This document shows positions 17,840-64,000 of a stretch of 64,000 nucleotides of DNA, piece by piece. The first letter of the stretch is position 1. Each line of letters starts with the position of its first letter. The notes beneath the pieces were generated by a model, which saw nothing but the letters and a program-made list of their open reading frames with translations, ran no database searches and was not told where the DNA came from. Source of the stretch: Canna indica (taxonomy: Eukaryota; Streptophyta; Magnoliopsida; Zingiberales; Cannaceae); assembly GCA_034359265.1 (NCBI GenBank), contig CP136890.1, forward strand, positions 45,048,501 through 45,112,500, written 5' to 3'. A program made the translations under genes and the position numbers.

Positions 17840-18125
17840 CTTCAGCAACGGCTATCAGCAACGGCCGCTCAAGCCGTTGCTATTTGCAACGGCATTCTTA
17901 CGGCCGCTCGAGCCGTTGCAGATATGTTGTATCTGCAACGCCTTTCTAACGGACATGCGAGCCGTTGCTGATTATGTTAATTATCAGCAACGGCTTTCTA
18001 ACGGACAAGTGAGCCGTTGCAGATGATAACTTATTAGCAACGACTTGCTAACGGACAAGTGAGCCGTTGCTGATGATAACTTATCAGCAACGGCTTTCTA
18101 ACGGGCGAGTGAGCCGTTGCTGATA
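17840..18125. repeat. CACTA 5' subterminal hairpin repeats (six units)
   Basis: Six units of about 45-55 bp each start with (A)GCAACGGC and end with AGCCGTTGC, so each can fold on itself. Units differ by small changes such as AACGGACAAGTG or AACGGGCGAGTG in the loop. Subterminal repeats are where CACTA TNPA-like proteins bind to bring the ends together. Confidence 0.85.
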
Positions 18126-32445: not shown

Positions 32446-32745
32446 TCAGCAACGGCTTTCCCACGGCCGTCCGTGGGAAAGCCGTTGCTAAAAGTTTATC
32501 GAAAGCCGTTGCTGATGACCTACATCAACGGCTTAGCGACGGGCTTTTACTAACGGTGTTGCTACGGACTCAGCGGCCGTTGCTATTAGTGTTATCAGCA
32601 ACGGCTCCGTGTCCGTTGCTGATAATATTTTTAGCGACGGCCCAAGCGGCCGTTGCTGATATGTCGCAAAGTTATCAGCAACGCGAGTTTCTGTCACGGC
32701 GCTATTGCAACGGCTCAGCAACGGCATCAGCCGTTGCTGATGCCC
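32446..32745. repeat. CACTA 3' subterminal hairpin repeats
   Basis: Words CAGCAACGGC and GCCGTTGCTG alternate at least six times and pair with each other. They mirror the repeats at 17840-18125 and end at the terminal repeat 32749-32760. Confidence 0.85.
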
Positions 32746-47519: not shown

Positions 47520-48286
47520 TGTTAAAATCCCACATTGATTAAAAATATGGCCAAGGTAGCCTTTAAATAGTTTGGGCAATCCTCTCCCCATGAGCTAGCT
47601 TTTGGAGTGAGTTTGGCCTACTAATTTCTTAACATGGTATCAGAGCCTATCCTGTGGTTGATATTGTGCCACCCACAGATGTCCAATCCTGCAAAACTCC
47701 ATGCTCCAAATGTCCAATCCTAGGCGTGACGGGGGTGTGTTAAAGTCCCATATTATTTAGAATATGGCCAAGATAGCCTTTAAATAGTTTGGGCAATCCT
47801 CTCCCATTGAGCTAGCTTTTGGGGTGAGTTAGACCTACGAATTTCTTAATATGGTATCAGAGCCTATCCTGTGGTTGATATGGTGCCACCCGCAGATGTC
47901 CAGTCCTACAAAACTCCACGCTCCAGATGTTGAATCCTGGGCGTGAGGGGTGTGTGTTAAAGTCCCACATTGGTTAAAATATGGCCAAGATAGCCTTTAA
48001 ATAGATTGGGCAATCCTCTCCCTGTGAGCTAGCTTTTGAGATGAGTTAGACCTACTAATTTCTTAATATGGTATCAGAGCCAATTGTGTGTTTGATATTG
48101 TGCCACCTACAGATGTCTAGTCTTGCAAAACTCCACGCTCCAGATATCCAATCCTGGGCGTGAGAGGGGTGTGTTAAAATCCCACATTGGTTAAAAATAT
48201 GGATAAGATAGCCTTTAAATAGTTTGGGCAATCCTCTCCTCATGAGTTAGCTTTTGGGGTGAGTTAGACCCACTAATTTCTTAACA
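47520..48286 (+). mobile_element. TRIM retrotransposon as a four-LTR tandem array
   Basis: LTRs lie at 47520-47634, 47738-47851, 47955-48068 and 48172-48286 (114-115 bp each, TGTTAAA...TTAACA or TTAATA). The first three are followed directly by the tRNA-Met primer site TGGTATCAGAGCC and about 100 bp of non-coding internal sequence ending in a GGGGTG-type purine tract. TACAC stands at 47515-47519 and 48287-48291, an exact 5-bp target duplication around the whole array. TRIMs encode nothing and move with the help of other elements. Confidence 0.95.
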
Positions 48287-51147: not shown

Positions 51148-51500
51148 TGTTGAACAAATACCCACACTAGAAGGGGGGGGGGGGGGGTTGAATAGTGTGT
51201 ATCTACTTTTATGATTAATTGATTTCTTTTCCGATTTTAATCAACTCAACTTCCCAATTCAAGTTACTTGATTCTTAGTGCGACTAGATGCAATCACAAT
51301 TATATCAAGCACAAGAGAAAATCAAATTGAGCAATCAAGATAGCAATGCAAATATAAAATATACAGTGGTTCGGCCAACACCGCCTACTCTACTACCTTG
51401 GCTCCTCACTAAGGATTTCTAACCTTAACACTATAGATTGATAGTTTTACTAAGAATACAATAAGTACTTATCCCTCAACCCTAGAGGCCAGTCTCAACA
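51148..51500 (-). mobile_element. 5' LTR of LARD 2, cut by the Tekay-like element
   Basis: It matches 46380-46720 in the same orientation (TGTTGAACAA, GGTTCGGCCAACACCG, CTTATCCCTCAACCCTAGAG). It contains a run of 15 G at 51173-51187 where the other LTR has seven. At 51501 the LTR of the Tekay-like element begins; the other half of this LTR would lie beyond the window. Confidence 0.85.
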
Positions 51501-51860
51501 TGTAATATCCTAGAAATTTAAATTTATTACTTTTCCTCTTATGTGTGTTTGCCAGCCTAGCGGACTAGTTCGTGGTTGAGCCGACTCAACTCTTAGTCCG
51601 GAGCGAGTTTGCGAGCTCGGGTAAGTAAAATAAGAATTTATGAATTTTAGGCTTGGGTAGTTGAAATTATTTAATTTGATGTTGTGTGTGCATAATTGTT
51701 AATTATGTTCATGTGGGTGTATATAATTATTTGCTTGTGATTTATTAGAATAAGTTTAATTAAATTAATTAAGTCTATCGGATTAGAGGGTTTGGTTGTG
51801 GCTTAAGGTGGATGCGGGTTGTGGATTAAGGTGCTCAAGGGGTTAGGGTTGAGGAGGGAG

Positions 51861-51867
51861 TATAAAA
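51861..51867 (+). promoter_or_regulatory. TATA box, first promoter block
   Basis: TATAAAA within GGGAGTATAAAACCCCCTCC, the probable core promoter of the LTR. The identical block occurs at 53136 and 61850. Confidence 0.75.
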
Positions 51868-53090
51868 CCCCCTCCCCTTGGATTGTGGCTCCTTATTTGG
51901 AGCCACACAAGTTTTTGAGAGGAGAAGCCAAGCCGCCCCCTTCCCTTTCCCCTTGGAGCCGCCGCCACCCAGAGCCAAGCCGATCTGCCCAAGCTGCCCT
52001 TCCTCTTCCTCTCTCTCTTCTTTCTCTCTGGAGCCGAGCCGAGAGGAGCTAGCCGAAGCTAGCCCCTCTCCTTCCTCTCCCCCTTTCTCCTCAAGCAGGC
52101 GGCTTGAGGTGAGTCGCCGCCCTCTTCTTCTTCCCCTTCTTGAATCGAGCCGCCATCCTTTAAAGCCGGATTCGAGGGCCGTCATTCAGGATTCTCCTCT
52201 TCTCATCCTTCCAAATTAGGTGAGTGGTTTACCCTCTCTATTCGGGATTTCAATCGGATTCTTGAAGCCGTTCTTGACGGCTTGGTATTTGTGTTTCGTT
52301 TCTTGATTGTTCTTCACGTTCTTGCCATGTTTCCTTGAGATTGTGCTTGAGGAGACCCTAATCTCCCCTCTATGGGGCTTGGCAGCCCTAGGGCAAGCCT
52401 GGGGTGCTCGGCCAAGGGGGAAACCCGGGTTGCCCTCAAGGTGTTCGATGAAAAGCCCGAATGAGTTCTTGTTTCCTTTGATATGAAATCTTCATCTATT
52501 CTCCTAATTTGCGATTCTTGATTATGAGTTTCTTGTTTAGAATTAAATCTGTGATTTTTTGGTAGAAATTATGTGGTAGGATTAAGATCTTGATAATGAC
52601 TAATTAGGGGTTCTTGAGAAGAGGGTTATTGATCTTAATGCTTGATACTTGGTTTAAGTGTGTGGGTTCTTGTTAATCTTGATGAATAGCATGATTTCTG
52701 TGAATTAATTCCTGAGATTTGTATTCTATCCTCATGGTAATTTAGGGGTTAATTTTTGTTAATTTTCGAATTTAATTCTATAAGTATGCTGAATTTGCAT
52801 GTTGCTGGAATTGTATGATGAGATGTTGAATCTGTGCTTATTTTAATTCTTTTGCTGTGATGTGTCTATATGTGTGAATATAGTCGTGTAACATATCGTT
52901 TCGACCAGAAAATATAGTTTGGAAACATAGGACACACTTTTGAGACTAGATTTGAGTTAGACATAATAGTTCTAGGCAGAACAATAACCTAAAACAAAAC
53001 CATAATTGAGATGATCTAAATTTTAATTATATAATTAAAATTGGATTAAGGGTGAGCATAATCTGTTATAAACTAACTTATAAATTTTGC

Positions 53091-53674
53091 GGGTTGTGGA
53101 TTAAGGTGTTTAAGGGATTAGGGTTGAGGAGGGAGTATAAAACCCCCTCCTCTTGGCTTGTGGCTCCTTATTTGGAGCCACAAAAGTTTTTGAGAGGAGA
53201 AGCCAAGCCGCCTAAGCTAGCCGCCGCCACCCAGAGCCAAGCAGAGCCGCCCAAGCTGCCCTTCCTCTTCCTCTCTCTCTTCTTTCTCTCTAAAGCCGAG
53301 CTGAGAGGAGCCAGCTGAAGCCAACCCTCTCCTTTCTTTCCCCCTTTCTCCTCAAGCCGACGGCTTGAGGTGAGCCGCCGCCCTCTTCTTCTTCCCCTTC
53401 TTCAATTGAGCTGCCATCCTTTGAAGTCGGATTCGAGGGCCGGTGTGAATATAGTTCTGTAACCTATCGTTTCGACCAGAAAATATAGTTTGGAAACATA
53501 TGACACACTTTGGAGACTAGATTTGGGTTAGGCACAGTAGTTCTGGGTAGAACAGTAAACTACAACAAAACCCTAAAACAAAATCCTAATTGAGATGATC
53601 TAAATTTTAATTATATAATTAAAATTGGGTTAAGGGTGAGCATAATTTGTTATGAACCAACTTATAAAGTATGC
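53091..53674 (+). repeat. Second, shortened copy of the LTR promoter block
   Basis: The copy restarts at GGGTTGTGGATTAAGG, equal to 51816. It runs to GAGGGCCG (53442) and then jumps to GTGTGAATATAG, equal to about 52875, ending with the ACTTATAAA words as at 53075. About 690 bp of the unit are missing in it. Its text is closer to the 3' LTR (61806-62154) than to the first block. Confidence 0.85.
53136..53142 (+). promoter_or_regulatory. TATA box, second promoter block
   Basis: TATAAAA in the duplicated block. The 5' LTR therefore offers two core promoters 1275 bp apart, and the 3' LTR only one. Confidence 0.7.
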
Positions 53675-53894
53675 ATGAAATAAAACCACATGGGCTCATG
53701 TCATTATGGGTCTAAGGGATAGGGGTCGGGTTTGGAGTGTTGAGACGCTTCATAATGTGGACATCCCTAGGACACTGTAGGAGAATCTTGACTTAGGTCT
53801 TGATGCGTCATATCTTTATGAATGGTGGAGAGGTTCGTACAGGAGCCGGATTGCGGGCTAAGCCCAGGAGGTTGGATAGCTAATTGCCAACCTG

Positions 53895-54216
53895 CAGAAC
53901 AAGTTCGGAGGGCCTTTGCCGATTGTTCTGGTTCAGCCTCGTGGGATAAATTTGGAGGGCCTACCCGATTATCCCGAGTTGGTGTTAAGGAATAAGTTCG
54001 GAGGGCCTTTCCCGATTATTCCTGTGTTATCCTTTAGGAGTAAGTTCAGAGGGCCTTTCTCTATTACTCCTATGATATCTTAAAGGGGAAGTTCGGATGG
54101 GCGAATCTTGATTGTCCCTATGCGTCTCGTCGAGCAAGTTCGGAGGGCCTGTCCCGATTGCTCCTGAGTTTCTTGTACTAGGATAAGTTCGGAGGGCCTT
54201 CCCGATTATCCTAGTA
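53895..54216 (+). repeat. Seven-hairpin array, 5' LTR
   Basis: Stem arms: 53895-53902/53923-53930; 53943-53949/53969-53975; 53988-53995/54016-54023; 54035-54043/54064-54072; 54085-54090/54112-54118 (imperfect); 54132-54137/54158-54163; 54176-54186/54206-54216. All share the apical sequence GTTCGGAGGGCCTTTCCCGA or close variants, but the stems differ and still pair. TCGG and CCGA inside the apical part can add an inner stem. Confidence 0.92.
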
Positions 54217-54224
54217 TGTGTTGT

Positions 54225-54332
54225 TGCCTTCGGGCATGGTAGGCTTCAGCATGTTGTACTCCACATTGCAGGGTTAGATGCCTTGGGGCATGGGTGGGCG
54301 GTTGGCATGTTAGCTAGTCACACCTTCGTGAC
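54225..54332 (+). repeat. Three small hairpins after the array
   Basis: TGCC-TTCG-GGCA at 54225-54236, ATGCC-TTGG-GGCAT at 54278-54291 and GTCAC-ACCTTC-GTGAC at 54317-54332. All three are kept in the 3' LTR (63607-63715). Confidence 0.75.
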
Positions 54333-54868
54333 ATTGTGTATTTAGAGAGAGATTTTATTCTTGTTGTCTCTGTGTTTTTATTTTTGAGGATTGGTAAAAC
54401 CGCTCGCTGAGTTCTTTGAACTCACCCGTTGTCGTGTGATTTCTGATTTGCAGAGCCTGACCGGTGAGGTGGGTTGGTGCACTTGGAGCATTTGGAGGGT
54501 ACTGGAGCCGCATGATCAGCAGTCCTAGTTAGGGTCGTAGTCGAGTTCTTTGGTAGTAGTCATGCACTTGTATTAGTTTGATTTGGAGTTGTAGCCCTGA
54601 GGGCATTTATGTCTTTTATGTCATTTATTTCTCATTTTATTGTTTCTAAACTTGTTAACTGTTGAACTTAAAACATTATTCCACACTTTTTGTTTCATTT
54701 GAGCTACTTGTTTAACCTATGTTTTGGTTTGCTTTTCATTAAAATAAAACTTGTTATTTCTTTTCGCTATATTATTTATTGAGTTGGCATATGCATGGTT
54801 TAGGCTGCGAGGTATAGACACGTATACCCTGGCCGGTCACGTGACCCTGAGTTGGGGTGTGACAATGT

Positions 54869-54880
54869 TGGTATCAGAGC
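54869..54880 (+). promoter_or_regulatory. Primer-binding site of the Tekay-like element
   Basis: TGGTATCAGAGC, exact initiator tRNA-Met site, 4 bp after the LTR end. Confidence 0.93.
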
Positions 54881-55079
54881 ATGTGGTTCGATTTGACTAC
54901 GATCTAGAGTTGTCACCGTATAGGGCATTGCTAGCGTGTCACTATGAGGTAGGGGTATGCTATGAGATCAATGGGCTATGCCTGCACCTCAGCGCGACTT
55001 GTGGTTTATTTGCTTAACGACTTAGGGTGAATTAATTATTTAAAAAAATTAATGTTTTCTTTATGGTGATTCCAGATCG

Positions 55080-56290
55080 AAGGAGGCTTTTGATGCCGCA
55101 AGGAGCGGTAGTGACAACAATTCTACTGAGCGCCGAGGCCGAGGCAGGCGCCGGGGTCGTGGGAGACCATCGCAGGCCCGAGAGGATGTGGGATAGGATC
55201 TCATGGTTGTTCAGTTGCAGGCCCATGTGTCTGAGTCGACAAAGGCACTCTGCAAGGAGCAGGGGTTGAGGCAGCAGCCATAACCAGTGCCAGCAGTACC
55301 CACAGCACCAGAGGTGGTCCAGCCAGTAGCACCGTTGGTCAGAGCCCCTAGAGCACCTTCATATGCAGAATTTATTGCATTCAGGTCATCGGAGTATACA
55401 GGGACAAATCAGCGGGTGGAGGTCACTAGTTTCCTGGGAGATTGCTATGAGCTGTGCCGGGAGCATGGTTGTTCTTCTGAGACGACCGCTCGATTGATCG
55501 GGTTACAACTGAGAGGTCGAGCCAATGATTGGCTTCACACCTAGAGGGACCGTAGAGCAGCAGATGCACCACCCCCTACTTGGGAGGAGTTTAAAGCTGC
55601 TATGGTGGAGAAGTACCTACCAATGAGCGTCCAGGACAGGCGACGAAAGTTTTCGTGCTACTACATTAGATGGGCAGTATGTCGATGATAGATTATGAGA
55701 TGGAGTTCATTCGGCTCTCGAAGTACCTTTCCACCCTGATAGCCACATAGACCACCAGGGTCAAGAGGTTTGTTGAGGGGTTGAGGCCGCAGATCACCAG
55801 ACTGATCCATACACCGAGGATACTTCTTTTGCTCGGGTTGCAGATGAGGCACTCCAAAAGGAGGCGTTGGTACCGACAGACAGGAATGATGGTCCCCATA
55901 AGAAAAAGTTTTGGCCCCAACCTCTAGGGGGTGGGCCAGCTCACTCAGAGGGGACTTTTAGGATAGCGAATCCACTGCAGGACAGAGGTCATAACAGTTC
56001 CAGAGGCCACATGGGTTTAGGACCAGGGGCGTTGTCTAGATGTTCGCAGCGGAGATTTGTGCCGCAGTAGTGTAACCAATGTCACAGGCGGCACCGGGGT
56101 GCTTGCTAGGGACGATTTGAGGGATGTTTTAGCTATGGGCAGACTGGGCATTTCTTAAAGGATAGTCCTGGCAAGGGCAGTCAGTAGCCTAATCTGACAA
56201 GAGGAAATGCACCAATGTTAGTAGGTTTCGTAGCTCAGAGGGGTCAGACTCAGGGAGGAGGCCAGCGAGCTGGTGGTTAAGAGAGACCCA
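55080..56290 (+). pseudogene. Gag of the Tekay-like element, many stops
   Basis: A likely start is near 55093. The best open part (55287-55541) reads PSYAEFIAFRSSEYTGTNQR, FLGDCYELCREHGCSS and LIGLQLRGRANDWLHT. It continues after a stop with TWEEFKAAMVEKYLPMSVQD (near 55580-55640). A zinc-knuckle end GYGQTGHFLKD at 56135-56165 has its last Cys changed to Ser. Stops are at 55542, 55682 and further positions. The order fits chromovirus gag. Confidence 0.75.
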
Positions 56291-56298
56291 CTACATGG

Positions 56299-56714
56299 GT
56301 GTTTGCTATGAATCAAGAGGGCACTGAGGCGTCCAAGGCAGTGGTGTCATGTAATATTGTTGTTGGGTCTGCCACTGCATATGTTTTGTTTGATCCGGGT
56401 GCTACACACTCTTTTGTATTTGATTTTTTTGCTACAAAGTTGTTAGGGGTACCTTCTGTGCTTGAGTTACCTCTTGTGGTGTCTACGCCTATGGGCGTTT
56501 CTGTGATGGCATAGACAATCTTTCAGGGCTACAAGGTTGTCATTTGTGGGCATATGTTGATAGCCTACTTGACCCTTCTGCCGATGCTCAAGCTTAACGT
56601 AATTTTGGGCATGGACTGGTTGGCGGACCATTTCACCACAGTGGATTGCAGGGCTAAGACTGTGACCTTCACTAAGCTCGGATTGCCCTAGTTTACCTTC
56701 CACGGTGAGGGAAG
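56299..56714 (+). pseudogene. Protease of the Tekay-like element
   Basis: YVLFDPGATHSFVF at 56377-56420 is the retropepsin site with the usual DSG changed to DPG. TAG at 56512 interrupts it, then ILGMDWLADHFTTVDCRAKT and FTFHGEG lead toward RT. The frame is cut by the solo LTR at 56715 and goes on at 58418 with RGEPLMAVSSLKARKLL. Confidence 0.8.
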
Positions 56715-58422
56715 TGTCAGTGATATGCCCTAGAGCCCTAATATAATTGGGAACTCTTTATGTACATTTTACTTATTTATGAAAGGCTATCTTTAATATT
56801 TCATGCTTATGTTAATTCATTTGCTTGCATAAAGACTTAAACTATGTAATAAAGTCCTTGGTATATGACACAGTGCAAAGGAAATCATGAAGAGTTCATG
56901 ATGTGAGATTCTTATGGCATGTAAATGTGTTTATACCTAAATTATCCCTAGTCGCAGTATTAACAAGATAGGACATTGTTAATACGGACAGACTAGCACA
57001 TGTTATACTTCTTGACTCGTTCAAGCAATAGTTCTCACAATTTGTGAGCATTGTGATGCTCAGAGTTAACATGTGGATGCTTGTTTGAGAAACAAGTTCA
57101 TTGGAGACCTAATCTTGAGATCTTCACAAGAATGTTCAATCTATGTTTGTGAAAGTATCTCATCATATCAGTGGTGCAAGTATCCTTGTAGTTGAGATCA
57201 CCAAAGTATCTTAAGTGCCTAGTGTTATATTTTGACTTCATTACTTATGGTTCACCTTTGGGTGTTCATAGCTTGAAGATTGGGTATAGCATGAATCACT
57301 TGGAGATAGTTGAGTGATCAACATAGGATTTACCACCCCATATTTATTTGGGGAGTTTATCTCACTCTTCTTGTACAATCTCTTTATTCAAGAGTCTCTG
57401 GCCAGGGCAGTATGTGTTTATGAATGTGATTCATAAAGGGCATTTTTGAAATAAAGATTTAAGATACAAGAATCTATACATTCAGGACTTGATTAACCTA
57501 GATGAGTTAAAGAGTGGTGACAGGAGTTGATTGCACGGTAACTGCATATGGAAGGGTGAAATGGTCAAACCACCGACCTTCTAACATTTGGGTAGTCATG
57601 ATGCTTGGCTAGAAGCCTCTCTTGACTTGTATAAGTGAATTTGTTTATTGAGAATGAATAATAATTTAAAGAGTTTAAATCATGTAATTCCACTTCAGTG
57701 AGAATTATAATTCACTATATACTACCAACAAGTTTTAGAAGCCCATAAGGTCAAACACTTATAGGAAGGATACAAAGGTAAAATAACAATGACATATATG
57801 GCATAAGATGTTATTAGGTTCATGAGAAAGAAGAGAGAAGATGGCTTGCAAGGCACATGAGATGGATTTGATCCATCTAGTTGAGTCCACTTATTGGACT
57901 CAAACCCGTTAGATGGATTTGATCCATCTTGTTTTAAACCCATGGGCAGATGAGATGGATTTGATCCATCTTGAGCCCTCTTATTGGTTTGAAACACTAA
58001 CCCTTGGAGTATATATATTTCCACTCCTAGGGTGCAGCTGGAGATAACAAGAAGAGGAGCAAAAATCAAATTTGGTCTCCCTTCTCTCATTGTACCTCTT
58101 CCTCCACTCCACCTTTCTCCTTGTGCCAAATTCCCTTGCTAGCATATAGGGAATTTTGGCTATTGTTGCTGCGCTTGAAGTGTTCTTGGATCAATCCTAG
58201 TGTGGATACTTTGGAGGTGATCCGATCTGGATCACTGTGGTTTATGACAACCCGGTGATGAGAAGCTCTTTCGTTCCTCTGATTTGGGTAACAGATCTAT
58301 CCTTCTCGTTGTTTTCTTCACTATTCTTTTAATGATGCAATCAGATCTTGTTTTTGATGATCAAAGGCACACAAAATTTTTGTTTTCCACTACCTCGTGT
58401 GTTAATGATTACCAATAGGAAG
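56710..58422 (+). mobile_element. Angela-like solo LTR with duplication GGAAG
   Basis: GGAAG stands at 56710-56714 and 58418-58422. The enclosed 1703 bp (56715-58417) begin TGTCAGTGATATGCCCTAGA, a start typical of Angela/BARE-type copia LTRs, and end ACCAATA. Three palindromes AGATGGATTTGATCCATCT (57860, 57911, 57953) precede TATATATAT (about 58009-58018). No internal part remains. Removing it restores the reading between protease and RT of the host element. Confidence 0.88.
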
Positions 58423-58433
58423 GGGTGAGCCGT

Positions 58434-59986
58434 TGATGGCGGTATCTTCTCTTAAGGCCCGGAAGTTACTTTTTGGCGGATGTCAGTCATTTTTGGCCTT
58501 TGTGTCAATGGCAGAGAAAGGCGGAGGTACGGCCAGAGACATCGGGGGGACGCCCATGGTGTGCGGGTTCTCTGATGTGTTTCCGGAGGAGTTGCCACGG
58601 TTACCTACAGAGATAGAGATCGAAATCTATATCGATTTGCAGCCAGGGGTGAAGCCGATCTCCATTCCATCGTATGAGATGGCACTAGCAGAGTTGAGGG
58701 AGTTGAAGTCCCAGTTGTAGGAGCTGCTCGACTTGGGTTTCATTCACCCCAGTGTTTCACCTTGGGGTGCTCCAGTGCTCTTTGTAAAGAAAAAGAATGC
58801 GTCCATGTGGATGTGCATTGTTTACCGACAACTTAATAAGGTAACAGTGAAGAATTGGTACCCGTTGCCCAGGATTGATGACCTATTTGATCAGCTTCAG
58901 GGAGCTCAATGATTTTCTAAGATTGACTTGCGGTCAGGGTATCATTAGTTGCGGATCCGGGATAGTGACGTCCTTAAGACTGCTTTCAGGCCGAGGTATT
59001 GGCACTTTGAGTTCCTGGTGATGTCTTTCGGGCTGACTAATGCACCTGCAGTATTTATGGACCTGATGAACCGAGTGTTCAGGGAATTATTGGATAAATT
59101 TGTAATTGTGTTTATTGATGATATCTTGATTTATTCCAGGTGCAGGGAGGAGCATGCTGAGCACTTGAGGGTAGTTCTGAAAACTCTCAGGGAGCACAGA
59201 TTGTATGCCAAATTCTCCAAGTGCGAGTTCTGGTTTGAGAGTGTTGGGTTCCTTGGCCATGTGGTGTCCAGGAAAGGGATAAAGATGGACCCCGCAAAGG
59301 TAGAAGTAGTTCAGAACTGGAAGAGGCCGACTAATATCACTGAGATCCATAGTTTCCTGGGGTTGGCAGGTTACTACAAAAAGTTTATGGAGAATTTCTC
59401 CAGGATTGCAGCACCTTTGACCCGCCTGACTCTGAAGAAGGTCAAGTTCGAATGGGACAATAAGTACGAGGAGAGCTTTCTGAAGCTGAAGGACCGTTTG
59501 ATGTCGGCGCCAGTTCTAGCAGTACCCTCGGGCTTGGGAGGGTTTGTTGTTTATTATGATGCTTCCCGGGTCGGCTTGGGTTGTGTGCTGATGCAGAATG
59601 GAAGAGTGATAGCCTATGCCTCCAGGCAGTTGAAGGTTCATGAGAAGAATTACCCAACCCATGATCTTGAGCTGGCTGCGATGGTGTTCGCATTGAAGCT
59701 GTGGTGTCACTACCTTTATGGCGAGGCTTATGAGATATACACTGATCATAAGAGCCTCCAGTATTTGCTCACCCAGAAGGAGTTGAATATGAGGCAGAGA
59801 AGATGGCTTGAGCAGTTGAAGGACTATGACTGCACGATCATGTACCACCCAGGGAAGGCTAATGTGGTAGCTGATGCTCTGAGCACGAAGTCTATGGGCA
59901 GTCTAGCGCAGTTGGCAGTCAGGAGGAGGCCGTTGGCTCAGGATTTGGCCCTATGTTTGGATGGCGGAGCAGTCTTATCAGTATGA
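58434..59986 (+). pseudogene. RT and RNase H of the Tekay-like element
   Basis: From 58434 the frame has DVFPEELPRLPTEIEIEIYI, then [42 protein letters not shown] and [11 protein letters not shown]. RNase H follows with [37 protein letters not shown] and VVADALS. Motif A and C Asp residues and the RNase H D, E, D set are visible. Stops at 58718 (TAG for Gln), about 58911 (TGA) and about 58948 (TAG) break the N-terminal part; the last 345 codons are open. Confidence 0.92.
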
Positions 59987-61412
59987 GATTCTGGTGCGCT
60001 GGTGGCCCACTTGAGAGTGCAGTCCACATTGGTTGACATGCTGCGGGCAACGCAGGAGGAGGATGTTTTTTGCGCACTCACTAAGGATCTGGTCAGGAGA
60101 GGAGATGTAGATAATGAATCAGTGAGGACTCGGAGGGCATTATGTGGTTTAAGAACCGGATTGTGGTACCCGATATGACTGAGGTTCGTAGGCAGGTACT
60201 GGAGATGGCTCATCAATCTACCTCCACTATGTATCCAGGAGCCACGAAGATGTACCGAGATCTCAGGCAAAACTATTGGTGGAAAGGCATGAAAAGAGAA
60301 GTGGCTGAGTTCGTGTCTAAGTGCCTGGTGTGTCAGTAGGTGAAGGCTGAGCATTTGAAGCCGGTAGGGTTGCTCCAGAACTTAGGGGTACCGGAGTGAA
60401 AATGAGAGAAGATAACCATGGATTTTGTAACCGTGTTGCTAAAGTCCGAGAAAGTCAATGATTCTATGTGGGTAGTGGTGGGTCGCCTAACCAAGACATC
60501 GCATTTCATACCAGCCAGGATGACCTTTTCAGCCGAGCAATAGGCAAGGTTGTTCTTGGATCGGATCGTCGCTTATCATGGAGTCTTATTATGATCATCT
60601 CAGATCGGGGCACCCAGTTCACAGCTCAATTTTGGCAGTCCTTCCAGGAGGCATTAGGCACTCAAGTTCGGTTCAGTACCGCATTTCAGCCTCAAATAGA
60701 TGGTCAGTCAGAGCGGACTATTCAGACGCTGGAGGATATACTGAGGGCATGTGTCCTAGACCTGGAGGTTAGTTGGGAGAGGCACTTACCTCTGATTGAG
60801 TTTGTCTATAATAACAGTTACCACAGTAGCATTGGGATGGCCCCATTTGAGGTGTTGTATGGGCGGAGATGCAGGTCGCCTGTAGGATGGTTTGAGGCAG
60901 GGGATTCCCTTATGATGGGACCTGACCTGGTGGAGGAGGCTGCGGAATAAGTGAAGCAAATCAGAGAGAGGCTGTTAGCAGCTCAGAGTCGCCAAAAGAT
61001 GTATGCTAATGGAAAGGCTAGGGAGATAGAGTTTGCTGAGGGGGACATGGTGTTCCTTGGGGTGTCCCCTATGAAAGGGGTGGTGAGGTTTGGTAAGAAA
61101 GGAATGCTAAGCCCTAGGTTCATTGGGCCATTTCCTATTCTCAGGCGCAGGGGAGTTGTGGTCTATGAGTTGGCCTTACCTCCAAGTATGGACCGAGTAT
61201 ATCCGGTGTTACATGTGTCCCATGTGATCGAGCCTACCGCAGTGGAGATAGATTCAGCAGTCTCTTATGAGGAGCGGCCAGTTGAGATGCTAAACCGGCA
61301 GATCCAGAAGTTGACATCCAAGGACATCCCCTTGGTTAAGGTTAGATGGGAGCACCATTCCTACCAGGCAGCCACCTGGTAGGTGTAGCAGGATATGAGG
61401 GAGCGTTATCCT
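59987..61412 (+). pseudogene. Integrase with C-terminal extension of the Tekay-like element
   Basis: The H2C2 part reads AHQSTSTMYPGATKMYRDLR and FVSKCLVCQ (60142-60340). The core has lost its first Asp (WVVVGRLTK for VVDR), keeps the second (IISDRGTQF) and the Glu (IDGQSERTIQ). The C-terminal part 60951-61382 has GPFPILRRRG, VYPVLHVS and a chromodomain-like tail IPLVKVRWEHHSYQAATW, then stops. Frame breaks are near 60340, 60400, 60470 and 60950. The tail wording fits the Tekay/Del lineage. Confidence 0.85.
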
Positions 61413-61489: not shown

Positions 61490-64000
61490 TGTAATATCCT
61501 AGATATTTAAATTTATTATTTTTCCTCTTATGTGTGTTTGCTAGCCTAGCGGACTAGTTCGTGGTCGAGCTGAGTCAACTCGTGGTTCGGAGCGAGCTTG
61601 CGAGCTCGGGTAAGTAGAATATAAATTTATGAATATTAGGCTTGTGTAGTTGAAATTATTTAATTTGATGTTGTGTGTGCATAATTGTTAAGTATGTTCA
61701 TGTGGGTGTATTTAATTAATTGCTTGTGATTTATTAGAATAAGTTTAATTAAATTAATTAAGTCTATCGGGTTAGCCGGTTTGATTGTGGCTTCAGGTGG
61801 ATGCGGGTTGTGGATTAAGGTGTTTAAGGGGTTAGGGTTGAGGAGGGAGTATAAAACCCCCTCCTCTTGGCTTGTGGCTCCTTAATGGAGCCACAAAAGT
61901 TTTTGAGAGGAGAAGCCAAGCTGCCTAAGCTAGCCGCCGCCACCCAGAGCCAAGCAGAGCCGCCCAAGCTGCCCTTCCTCTTCCTCTCTCTCTTCTTTCT
62001 CTCTGGAGCCGAGCTGAGAGGAGCCAACTGAAGCCAACCCTCTCCTTTCTTTCCCCCTTTCTCCTCAAGCCGACGGCTTGAGGTGAGCCGCCGCCCTCTT
62101 CTTCTTCCCCTTCTTCAATTGAGCTGCCATCCTTTGAAGTCGGATTCGAGGGCCGTCATCTGGGATTCTCCTCTTTTCATCCTTCCAAATTAGGTGAGTG
62201 GTTTACCCTCTCTCTTCGTGATTTCAATCGGATTCTTGAAGCCGTTCTTGATGGCTTGGTATTTGTGTTTCATTTCTTGATTGTTCTTCACGTTCTTTCC
62301 ATGTTTCCTTGATATTGTGCTTGAGGAGACCCTAATCTCTCCTCTATGGGGCTCGGCAGCCCTATGGTAACCCTATGGGTGCTCGGCCAAGGGGGAAACC
62401 TGGGTCGCCCTCAAGGTGTTCGATGAAAAGACCGAATGAGTTCTTGATTCCTTTGATATGAAATCTTCATCTATTCTCCTAATTTGAGATTCTTGATTAT
62501 GAGTTTCTTGTTTAGAATTAAATCTATGATCTTTTGGGTTGAAATAATGTGGTAGGATTCAGATCTTGATAATGACTAATTAAGGGTTCTTGAGAAGGGG
62601 TTCTTGATATTAATGCTTGATTCTTGGTTTAAGTGTGTGGGTTCTTGTTAATCTTGATGAAATGCAGGATTTCTGTGAATTAATTCCTGAGATTAGTATT
62701 CTATCCTAATGGTAATTTAGAGATTAGTTTTTTTTTATTTTTGGATTTAATTCTATAAGTATGCTTAATTTGCATGTTGCTGGAATTGTATGATCAGATG
62801 TTGAATCTGTGCTTATTTTAATTCTTTTGCTGTGATGTGTCTATATGTGTTAATATAGTCGTGTAACATATCGTTTCGACCAGAAAATATTGTTTGGAAA
62901 TATAGGACACACTTTGGAGACTAGATTCGAGTTAGACACAACAGTTCTAGGCAGAACAGTAACCTAAAACAAAACCATAATTGAGATGATCTAAATTTTA
63001 ATTATATAATTAAAATTGGATTAAGGGTGATCATAATATGTTATAAACTAACTTATAAATTTTGCATGAAATAAAACCACACGGGTTCATGACATTACGG
63101 GTCTAAGGGATAGGGGTCGAGTTTGGAGTGTTGAGACGCTTCATAATGAGGACACCGTAGGAGAATCTTGACTTAGGTCTTGATGCGCCATATCTTTATG
63201 AATGACAGAGAGGCTCGTACAAGAGCTAGATTGCGGGATAAGCCCGGGAGGTTGGATGGCTAATTCCCAACCCGCAGAACAAGTTCGGAGGGCCTTTCCC
63301 GATTGTTCTGGTTTAGCCTTGTGGGATAAGTTCGGAGGGCCTACCTAATTATCAGTAAGGTGGTGTTAAGGAATAAGTTCGGAGGGCCTTTCCTGATTAT
63401 TCCTGTGATATCCTTTAGGAGTAAGTTCAGAGGGCCTTTCCCGATTACTCCTATGATATCTTAATGGGGCAAGTTCGGATGGGCGAATCCCGATTGTCCC
63501 TACGCGTCTTGTCGAGCAAGTTCGGAGAGCCTTTCCCGATTGCTCCCGAGTTTCTTGTACTAGGATATGTTCGGAGGGCCTTCCCGATTATCCTAGTATG
63601 TGTTGTTGCCTTCGGGCATGGGAGGGTTTGGCCTGATGTACTCCACTTTGGAGGGTTAGATGCCTTGGGGCATGGGTGGCCTGTTGGCCTGTTAGCTAGT
63701 CACACCTTCGTGACATTGCCTATTTAGAGATAGATTTTATTCTTTTTATCTCTGTGTTCTTATTTATGTGGGTTGGTAAAACCGCTTGCTGAGTTATTTG
63801 AACTCACATGTTGTCGTGTGATTTTTGTTTTGCAGAGCCTGACCGTTGCGTTGGGTTGGGGCACTTGGCGCAGTTGGAGGGCAGTGGAGCCGCATGATCT
63901 CATAACAGTCCTAGTTAGGGTCGTAGTTGAGTTCTTTGGTAGTAGTCATGCACTTGTATTAGTTTGATTTGGAGTTGTAGCCTTGAGGGCATTTATGTCA
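61490..64000 (+). mobile_element. 3' LTR of the Tekay-like element (runs out of the window)
   Basis: It matches the 5' LTR from the start, with one promoter block only (TATAAAA at 61850-61856), the leader, and the seven-hairpin array at 63275-63598. 2511 bp are present; by comparison about 260 bp are missing beyond the window. Confidence 0.9.
63275..63598 (+). repeat. Seven-hairpin array, 3' LTR
   Basis: The same seven units as at 53895-54216. The fifth pairs better here (GGGGCAA with TTGTCCC). The second and seventh have lost some pairs (ATCAG for ATCCC; GGATATG for GGATAAG). Confidence 0.88.

Follow-up and report, generated by a model that had tools for sequence, protein, structure and literature searches.

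A tandem array of hairpins with changing but paired stems in the long terminal repeats of a Ty3/gypsy-type retrotransposon of Canna indica

Results

The array lies in the LTRs of a Ty3/gypsy-type element

The window (the whole stretch of 64,000 nucleotides of Canna indica DNA that was analysed) contains on its + strand a Ty3/gypsy-type LTR retrotransposon, as seen from the pair of LTRs, the primer site, the polypurine tract and the order of the proteins (protease, reverse transcriptase, RNase H and integrase, the integrase being weak). The polypurine tract and the LTR ends were read by eye. The 5′ LTR spans positions 51499 to 54864, with approximate ends, and the 3′ LTR runs from 61490 to the end of the window at 64000; by eye it continues for about 210 bases beyond the window and apparently lacks the last bases of the 5′ LTR. 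The primer binding site TGGTATCAGAGC, presumably for initiator Met tRNA, is located at 54869–54880. The same motif is found at 47635, 47852 and 48069 within a tandem array of 217-base units (47520–48284, 3.5 copies). The coding part (56281–61382, + strand) is broken, and its domain matches are scattered over separate reading frames. They comprise protease, reverse transcriptase, RNase H, a weak integrase (20 bits, below the curated cut-off of 32.6 bits) and a Tf2-1-type SH3 domain, the latter being the only match in the last of the three reading frames scanned. A Gag domain was not recognised in seven reading-frame pieces of this broken copy.

A TATA box is present in the 3′ LTR (61850–61856, + strand), and the same context recurs at 51861 and 53136. 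Inside the 5′ LTR a promoter segment is duplicated: the second TATA-bearing segment (53088–53442) is 98% like positions 61802–62155 of the 3′ LTR, and the remaining sequence of the two LTRs differs by about 8–11%. Splicing was ruled out as the origin of this rearrangement, since the junctions consist of short homology and show no GT-AG (by eye). Splice-like AG/GTGAG sequences were seen at 53368, 62081 and 62192, and TTTGCAG at about 54452 (by eye). These sites flank the hairpin array, which would sit in a leader intron if they were used. The array is located about 1.4 kb downstream of the TATA box (3′ LTR) and upstream of the primer site. This position suggests that it is part of the RNA leader, and it is probably transcribed.

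Seven hairpins in a row share one stem design

Seven hairpin units occupy positions 53895–54216 of the 5′ LTR, with start-to-start distances of 47, 46, 48, 47, 47 and 49 bases, and a second array of seven units is present in the 3′ LTR (63275–63598, + strand). The primer site (54869) follows 653–974 bases downstream of the 5′ array, in agreement with the 650–970 bp given in an earlier note on this DNA. On the + strand, unit 1 (CAGAACAA/TTGTTCTG) is found at 53895–53930, unit 2 (GGGATAA/TTATCCC, apex of 19 bases) at 53943–53975, unit 3 (AGGAATAA/TTATTCCT) at 53988–54023, unit 4 (TAGGAGTAA/TTACTCCTA) at 54035–54072, unit 5, which has a different apex, at 54084–54119, unit 6 (GAGCAA/TTGCTC, to which the predicted fold adds a further outer stem) at 54132–54163, and unit 7 (TACTAGGATAA/TTATCCTAGTA, apex again of 19 bases) at 54176–54216. 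Directly before unit 1 lies an extra small hairpin with another loop (AGGTTGG/CCAACCT, 53869–53893).

The earlier note had described seven hairpins in a row with one constant apex in a Tekay-like element, Tekay being a candidate lineage within the Ty3/gypsy type that the protein order shows. The row was found as described; the apex is shared, with small changes, by six of the seven units and differs in unit 5. In the 5′ array the form quoted in that note occurs exactly in unit 3 only. The apices of units 1, 4 and 6 are at most three substitutions away from it; in units 2 and 7 the apex is shorter by one base, with additional changes in unit 2. The apex of unit 5 is GTTCGGATGGGCGAATCTTGA and recurs with small changes in other copies. 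Most other copies of unit 5 have GGGGCAA opposite TTGTCCC, which includes one G-U pair, while the 5′ arm of the window copy is one C short. A GGCC palindrome, with its four bases a weak indication of a packaging or dimerisation signal, is present in the majority apex of units 1–4, 6 and 7 and absent from that of unit 5.

In the following, k denotes the stem position counted outward from the apex. All seven stems follow a single design, NGRRYAA/TTRYYCN. In the majority stems the pairs at k = 1 and 2 (AA/TT) and at k = 6 (G-C) do not vary between units, and those at k = 3, 4, 5 and 7 alternate between A-T and G-C or between T-A and C-G, thus by transitions only, and are paired throughout with the exception of one G-U. 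Whatever the tree, the seven majority stems require at least eight changes of pair state at these four positions, all of them transitions. The majority pairs at k = 8 include C-G, A-T and T-A, so that transversions do occur further out. The seven stems had been reported as different and self-complementary. Their pairing is borne out by these data; they are variants of one design and not unrelated sequences.

The array contains six non-overlapping hairpins with perfect arms (arms of at least 6, loops of 12–26), whereas 1000 first-order Markov simulations yielded 0.87 on average and never more than 4. With up to three mismatches, GTTCGGAGGGCCTTTCCCGA occurs eight times in the window, always inside the two arrays, and not at all in 100 shuffles. 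The genome contains 852 exact apex matches (399 forward, 453 reverse; 0 for the reversed control) and 147 exact matches to the apex pattern of unit 5. An exact 24-base search of viral and of prokaryote contigs gave 0 and 0 matches, and the covariance models of Rfam 15 gave none on positions 53000–55000 at E values up to 1. Elsewhere in the window, 15 copies of GCAACGGCT, lying in both orientations (0.2 expected), make up clusters at 17845–18120 and 32449–32737 with many same-arm hairpins. These clusters at 17.8 and 32.5 kb are not arrays of the same type, as one motif is present in both orientations; we take them to resemble the subterminal repeats of a DNA transposon.

Pairing is kept across copies

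A first set of 82 loci was compiled from both window arrays and from 80 loci of contig C1 that surround an exact match to the apex, and 417 of the 429 units found were used for pairing (12 were dropped). Within units, k = 3, 4, 5 and 7 were paired in fractions of 0.88, 0.81, 0.89 and 0.77 of the 417 units, compared to 0.43, 0.47, 0.44 and 0.41 when the 3′ arm was taken from another unit of the same copy. The k = 4 pair of unit 5 was G-U in 38 of 41 units. For an analysis of covariation, 42 rows (40 distinct) were taken from the seven units of six hand-chosen arrays, two of them those of the window. The covariation score was 0.368 versus 0.208 in shuffles, which ignore the kinship of rows, and none of 500 shuffles reached it; 91.5% of the cells were paired, compared to at most 51.3% at slid partners. 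Two of five covariation measures were unfavourable: the number of pairs with a change on both sides was matched by 210 of 500 shuffles, and the number of further pair types was reached by 499 of 500. The covariation of the outer stems that the earlier note had pointed out is thus seen both between units and between copies, above shuffled, swapped and slid controls. All copies are from one genome, and the tests share copies and are not independent.

Inherited changes keep pairing more often than later decay

In a larger set, 176 loci yielded 1059 units, of which 885 in 163 loci were assigned by the letters at k = 9–20 on both sides and 174 were dropped. A tree of 153 copies was built from the flanks external to the array, and changes were placed on it by parsimony. 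The unit search included the stems (by similarity), and k = 9–11 of unit 7 counts in both stem and label. Internal branches represent lineages that kept multiplying, with changes inherited by at least two copies, and what changed on terminal branches is for the most part the decay of copies already inserted.

Of the changes that started at a Watson-Crick pair, 23 of 29 on internal branches and 183 of 510 on terminal branches left the position paired (Fisher p = 4.9e-6). The internal changes led to another Watson-Crick pair in 8 cases, to G-U in 15, to A-C in 1 and to other mismatches in 5; the respective terminal numbers were 26, 157, 119 and 208. The internal changes are small in number and cannot be treated as independent, as unit 1 at k = 7 and 8 and unit 4 at k = 7 flip repeatedly. 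These flips can in part reflect errors of the tree, and exchange between copies can also produce them. Due to such repeated events at the same positions, the count in which each kind of change enters once is the cautious one; here 11 of 17 internal changes kept pairing (p = 0.021). When only internal branches with a support of at least 0.8 were considered, 14 of 19 changes kept pairing (p = 0.0013), and in clades of at least three copies all 15 of 15 did (p = 3.2e-7). A smaller set of 73 copies with seven units showed the same direction, with, from Watson-Crick pairs, 1 double change, 10 G-U, 2 A-C and 4 other changes on internal branches and 5, 79, 68 and 141 on terminal branches. Double changes were found 8 times at the true partner versus 0–5 times at slid partners on internal branches, and 34 versus 5–20 times on terminal branches. 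Taken together, these data make it very probable that selection acted on the pairing of the outer stems while the family spread.

The numbers of internal and terminal changes were 39 and 837 for the apex, 52 and 588 for the stems, and 73 and 438 for the six individually aligned spacers. By these ratios the apex changed least during the spread of the family, with the proviso that loci were picked by exact apex match, which reduces the apex changes counted on terminal branches for one or more units of every locus. Internal transitions and transversions were found at 47:5 in the stems and 29:44 in the aligned spacers, a difference to which methylated C sites may contribute. For the inner TCGG/CCGA stem, also listed as recurrent by the earlier note, changes on internal branches (16 G-U, 10 A-C, 2 other) and on terminal branches (233, 208 and 73) did not differ clearly, giving no clear sign of paired evolution.

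G-U steps tentatively point to the sense strand

On internal branches G-U exceeded A-C by 15:1, compared to 157:119 on terminal branches (p = 0.003). The internal ratio was 8:1 when each kind was counted once (p = 0.084) and 6:1 when a support of at least 0.8 was applied in addition (p = 0.24). Terminal C>T and G>A changes were found at 360:275 in the apex, 146:137 in the stems and 86:116 in the aligned spacers. Since this ratio varies by region, no uniform strand bias produces the internal ratio of G-U to A-C. The excess of retained G-U over retained A-C steps suggests, though not strongly, action in the sense transcript, and we consider sense RNA to be rather likely the target of selection.

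Energies of predicted folds do not favour the sense strand, since the whole array reached a z-score of −4.30 on the minus strand and −2.76 on the sense strand, and the minus strand was also stronger in six of the seven units. Five of the seven sense units taken singly had z-scores of merely −1.2 to −1.8, and the 346 bases adjoining the array gave 0.17. In predicted folds, each unit alone formed a hairpin in the sense strand, while the predicted sense fold of the whole array did not consist of seven separate hairpins and mixed the units, with apex pairing with apex.

Units are gained, lost and exchanged

After filtering, seven units were found in 23 of the 82 loci of the first set, six in 25, five in 10 and one in 13; the remaining 11 loci had 2–4, 8 or 9 units. 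Loci with six units may have seven with one missed. The single hairpin of the 13 one-hairpin loci resembles unit 1 on its 5′ side and unit 7 on its 3′ side. Twelve of these loci and the two-unit locus L021 group together in a clade (support 1.0), next to which L042 is placed with weak support. This clade also spread, so that seven units are not essential. On contig C1, five one-hairpin copies (L029–L033) lie at distances of 53–65 kb from one another; their near-identical flanks suggest that a larger segment has been repeated. At k = 8, eight of the one-hairpin loci have C-A, three have T-A (L023, L030, L043), L056 has C-G and L051 has T-G. Read in terms of repair, five of these pairs could have been restored, on either side, and eight not.

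The first set contained seven hybrids whose 5′ side resembles unit 1 and whose 3′ side resembles unit 2. Of the 7 positions, a mean of 4.0 was paired in these hybrids, compared to 6.63 in 328 units with agreeing sides. This low value indicates that stems are disrupted by exchange mediated by the apex, which is what would be expected in the absence of selection.

Discussion

Our data support selection on a structure, as proposed in the earlier note, and between the two forms it had left open, RNA or cruciform, they moderately favour RNA. The folded RNA of the array was probably useful to the element while its copies multiplied. With a likelihood that we place a little below even, the array acts in cis as an RNA element of this plant retrotransposon of the Ty3/gypsy type, a reading that combines selection on pairing, action as sense RNA and a role of Gag. 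In this mechanism the stems would present the apex, and the repeated apices would form a multivalent RNA binding site. The likeliest partner would be the Gag protein of the element itself, which could mark the genomic RNA for packaging or pair two genomes, and the GGCC palindrome in the loops of six of the seven units could permit loop-loop contact. We put forward the part of Gag in packaging or dimerisation tentatively, as the leading candidate, to which roles in translation or for a host protein come close. It is somewhat doubtful whether the tandem covarying array as a whole is a packaging or dimerisation domain, in which the near-identical apices would act jointly and recombination through the apex could raise the number of units, or lower it to a single one, while function is kept.

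The same RNA hairpins might instead serve another partner, either a host RNA-binding protein with a function in nuclear export or stability, or the control of ribosomes by a structured leader. We regard this as possible and rather doubtful; the structural evidence fits it equally, as does the position in the leader, and nothing specific speaks against it. Due to the candidate AG/GTGAG sites upstream of the array, the export of unspliced RNA could matter.

Selection could also have acted on DNA, either on a cruciform or on a set of palindromes in the LTR that a DNA-binding protein would recognise. The arms are equally inverted repeats in DNA, the spacing is regular (46–49 bases), and the z-scores of the minus strand are equal or stronger. 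A protein site would, however, hold the letters of the arms fixed and not vary them in pairs, and a cruciform would not distinguish G-T from A-C, which makes selection on DNA unlikely.

Paired arms may further arise without any selection, if one arm serves as the template for the other during reverse transcription or repair, and imperfect palindromes are known to undergo such hairpin-templated correction. It is in line with this process that terminal double changes, too, were more frequent at the true than at slid partners, and that exchange through the apex is frequent, as seen from the seven unit-1/unit-2 hybrids. Templated correction does not, however, predict the 15 G-U versus 1 A-C on internal branches, the kept G-U pair of unit 5 or the difference in transitions and transversions between stems and aligned spacers, and it leaves the slow change of the apex unexplained. 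We therefore judge it to be improbable as the source of the pairing. Chance, or recent tandem duplication with stems of no meaning, is very improbable: duplicated units do exist (L076 has nine units, L084 eight), but the shuffle, swap, slide and Markov controls already contradict this explanation, covariation exceeds the controls across copies, and six or seven units are present in 48 of the 82 first-set loci, at least five in 60.

A repeated hairpin that is backed by covariation and has a nearly fixed apex offers a compact and well-defined object for studies of binding and for structure probing. Comparing inherited changes with the decay that follows insertion, all within one genome, is a practicable way to search for structured transposon RNA without other species. 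Ty3/gypsy elements fill much of many plant genomes, and to our knowledge the marking of their own RNA by such plant elements has hardly been studied. Among the literature matches listed, which cover few of the subscription journals, no title or opening of an abstract describes such an array.

Several known systems can be compared with the array. Ty1 of yeast belongs to another superfamily (Ty1/copia type), BARE of barley is also of the copia type, and the packaging signals proposed for STNV-1 are of hairpin form. As described in PMC5454406, the hairpins SL1a and SL3a of the Ty1 leader are proposed to form kissing loops, and compensatory changes restore function. They resemble the array in being hairpins in the 5′ part of an LTR retrotransposon RNA; Ty1, however, has two hairpins with complementary apices (two 7-base motifs) inside a pseudoknot (PMC5454406), whereas the present array is a series of units that share an apex. 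For BARE, the passages available from PMC3735527 describe a plant LTR element with conserved dimerisation and packaging signals, and a hairpin array is absent from these passages. STNV-1 is similar in that several short signals were proposed in one RNA, and according to PMC6475782 they are without discernible significance for selective packaging in vivo, which calls for caution with the packaging model. Those signals are degenerate, in contrast to the tandem, regularly spaced units of the present array with their apex of about 20 bases. With the retroviral Psi/DIS hairpins the array shares the probable position in the leader and the short stems and possibly, by the four-base GGCC of six of the seven units, a palindromic loop; unlike them, it comprises about seven units (nine in L076) and is located inside the LTR, 650–970 bases before the primer site.
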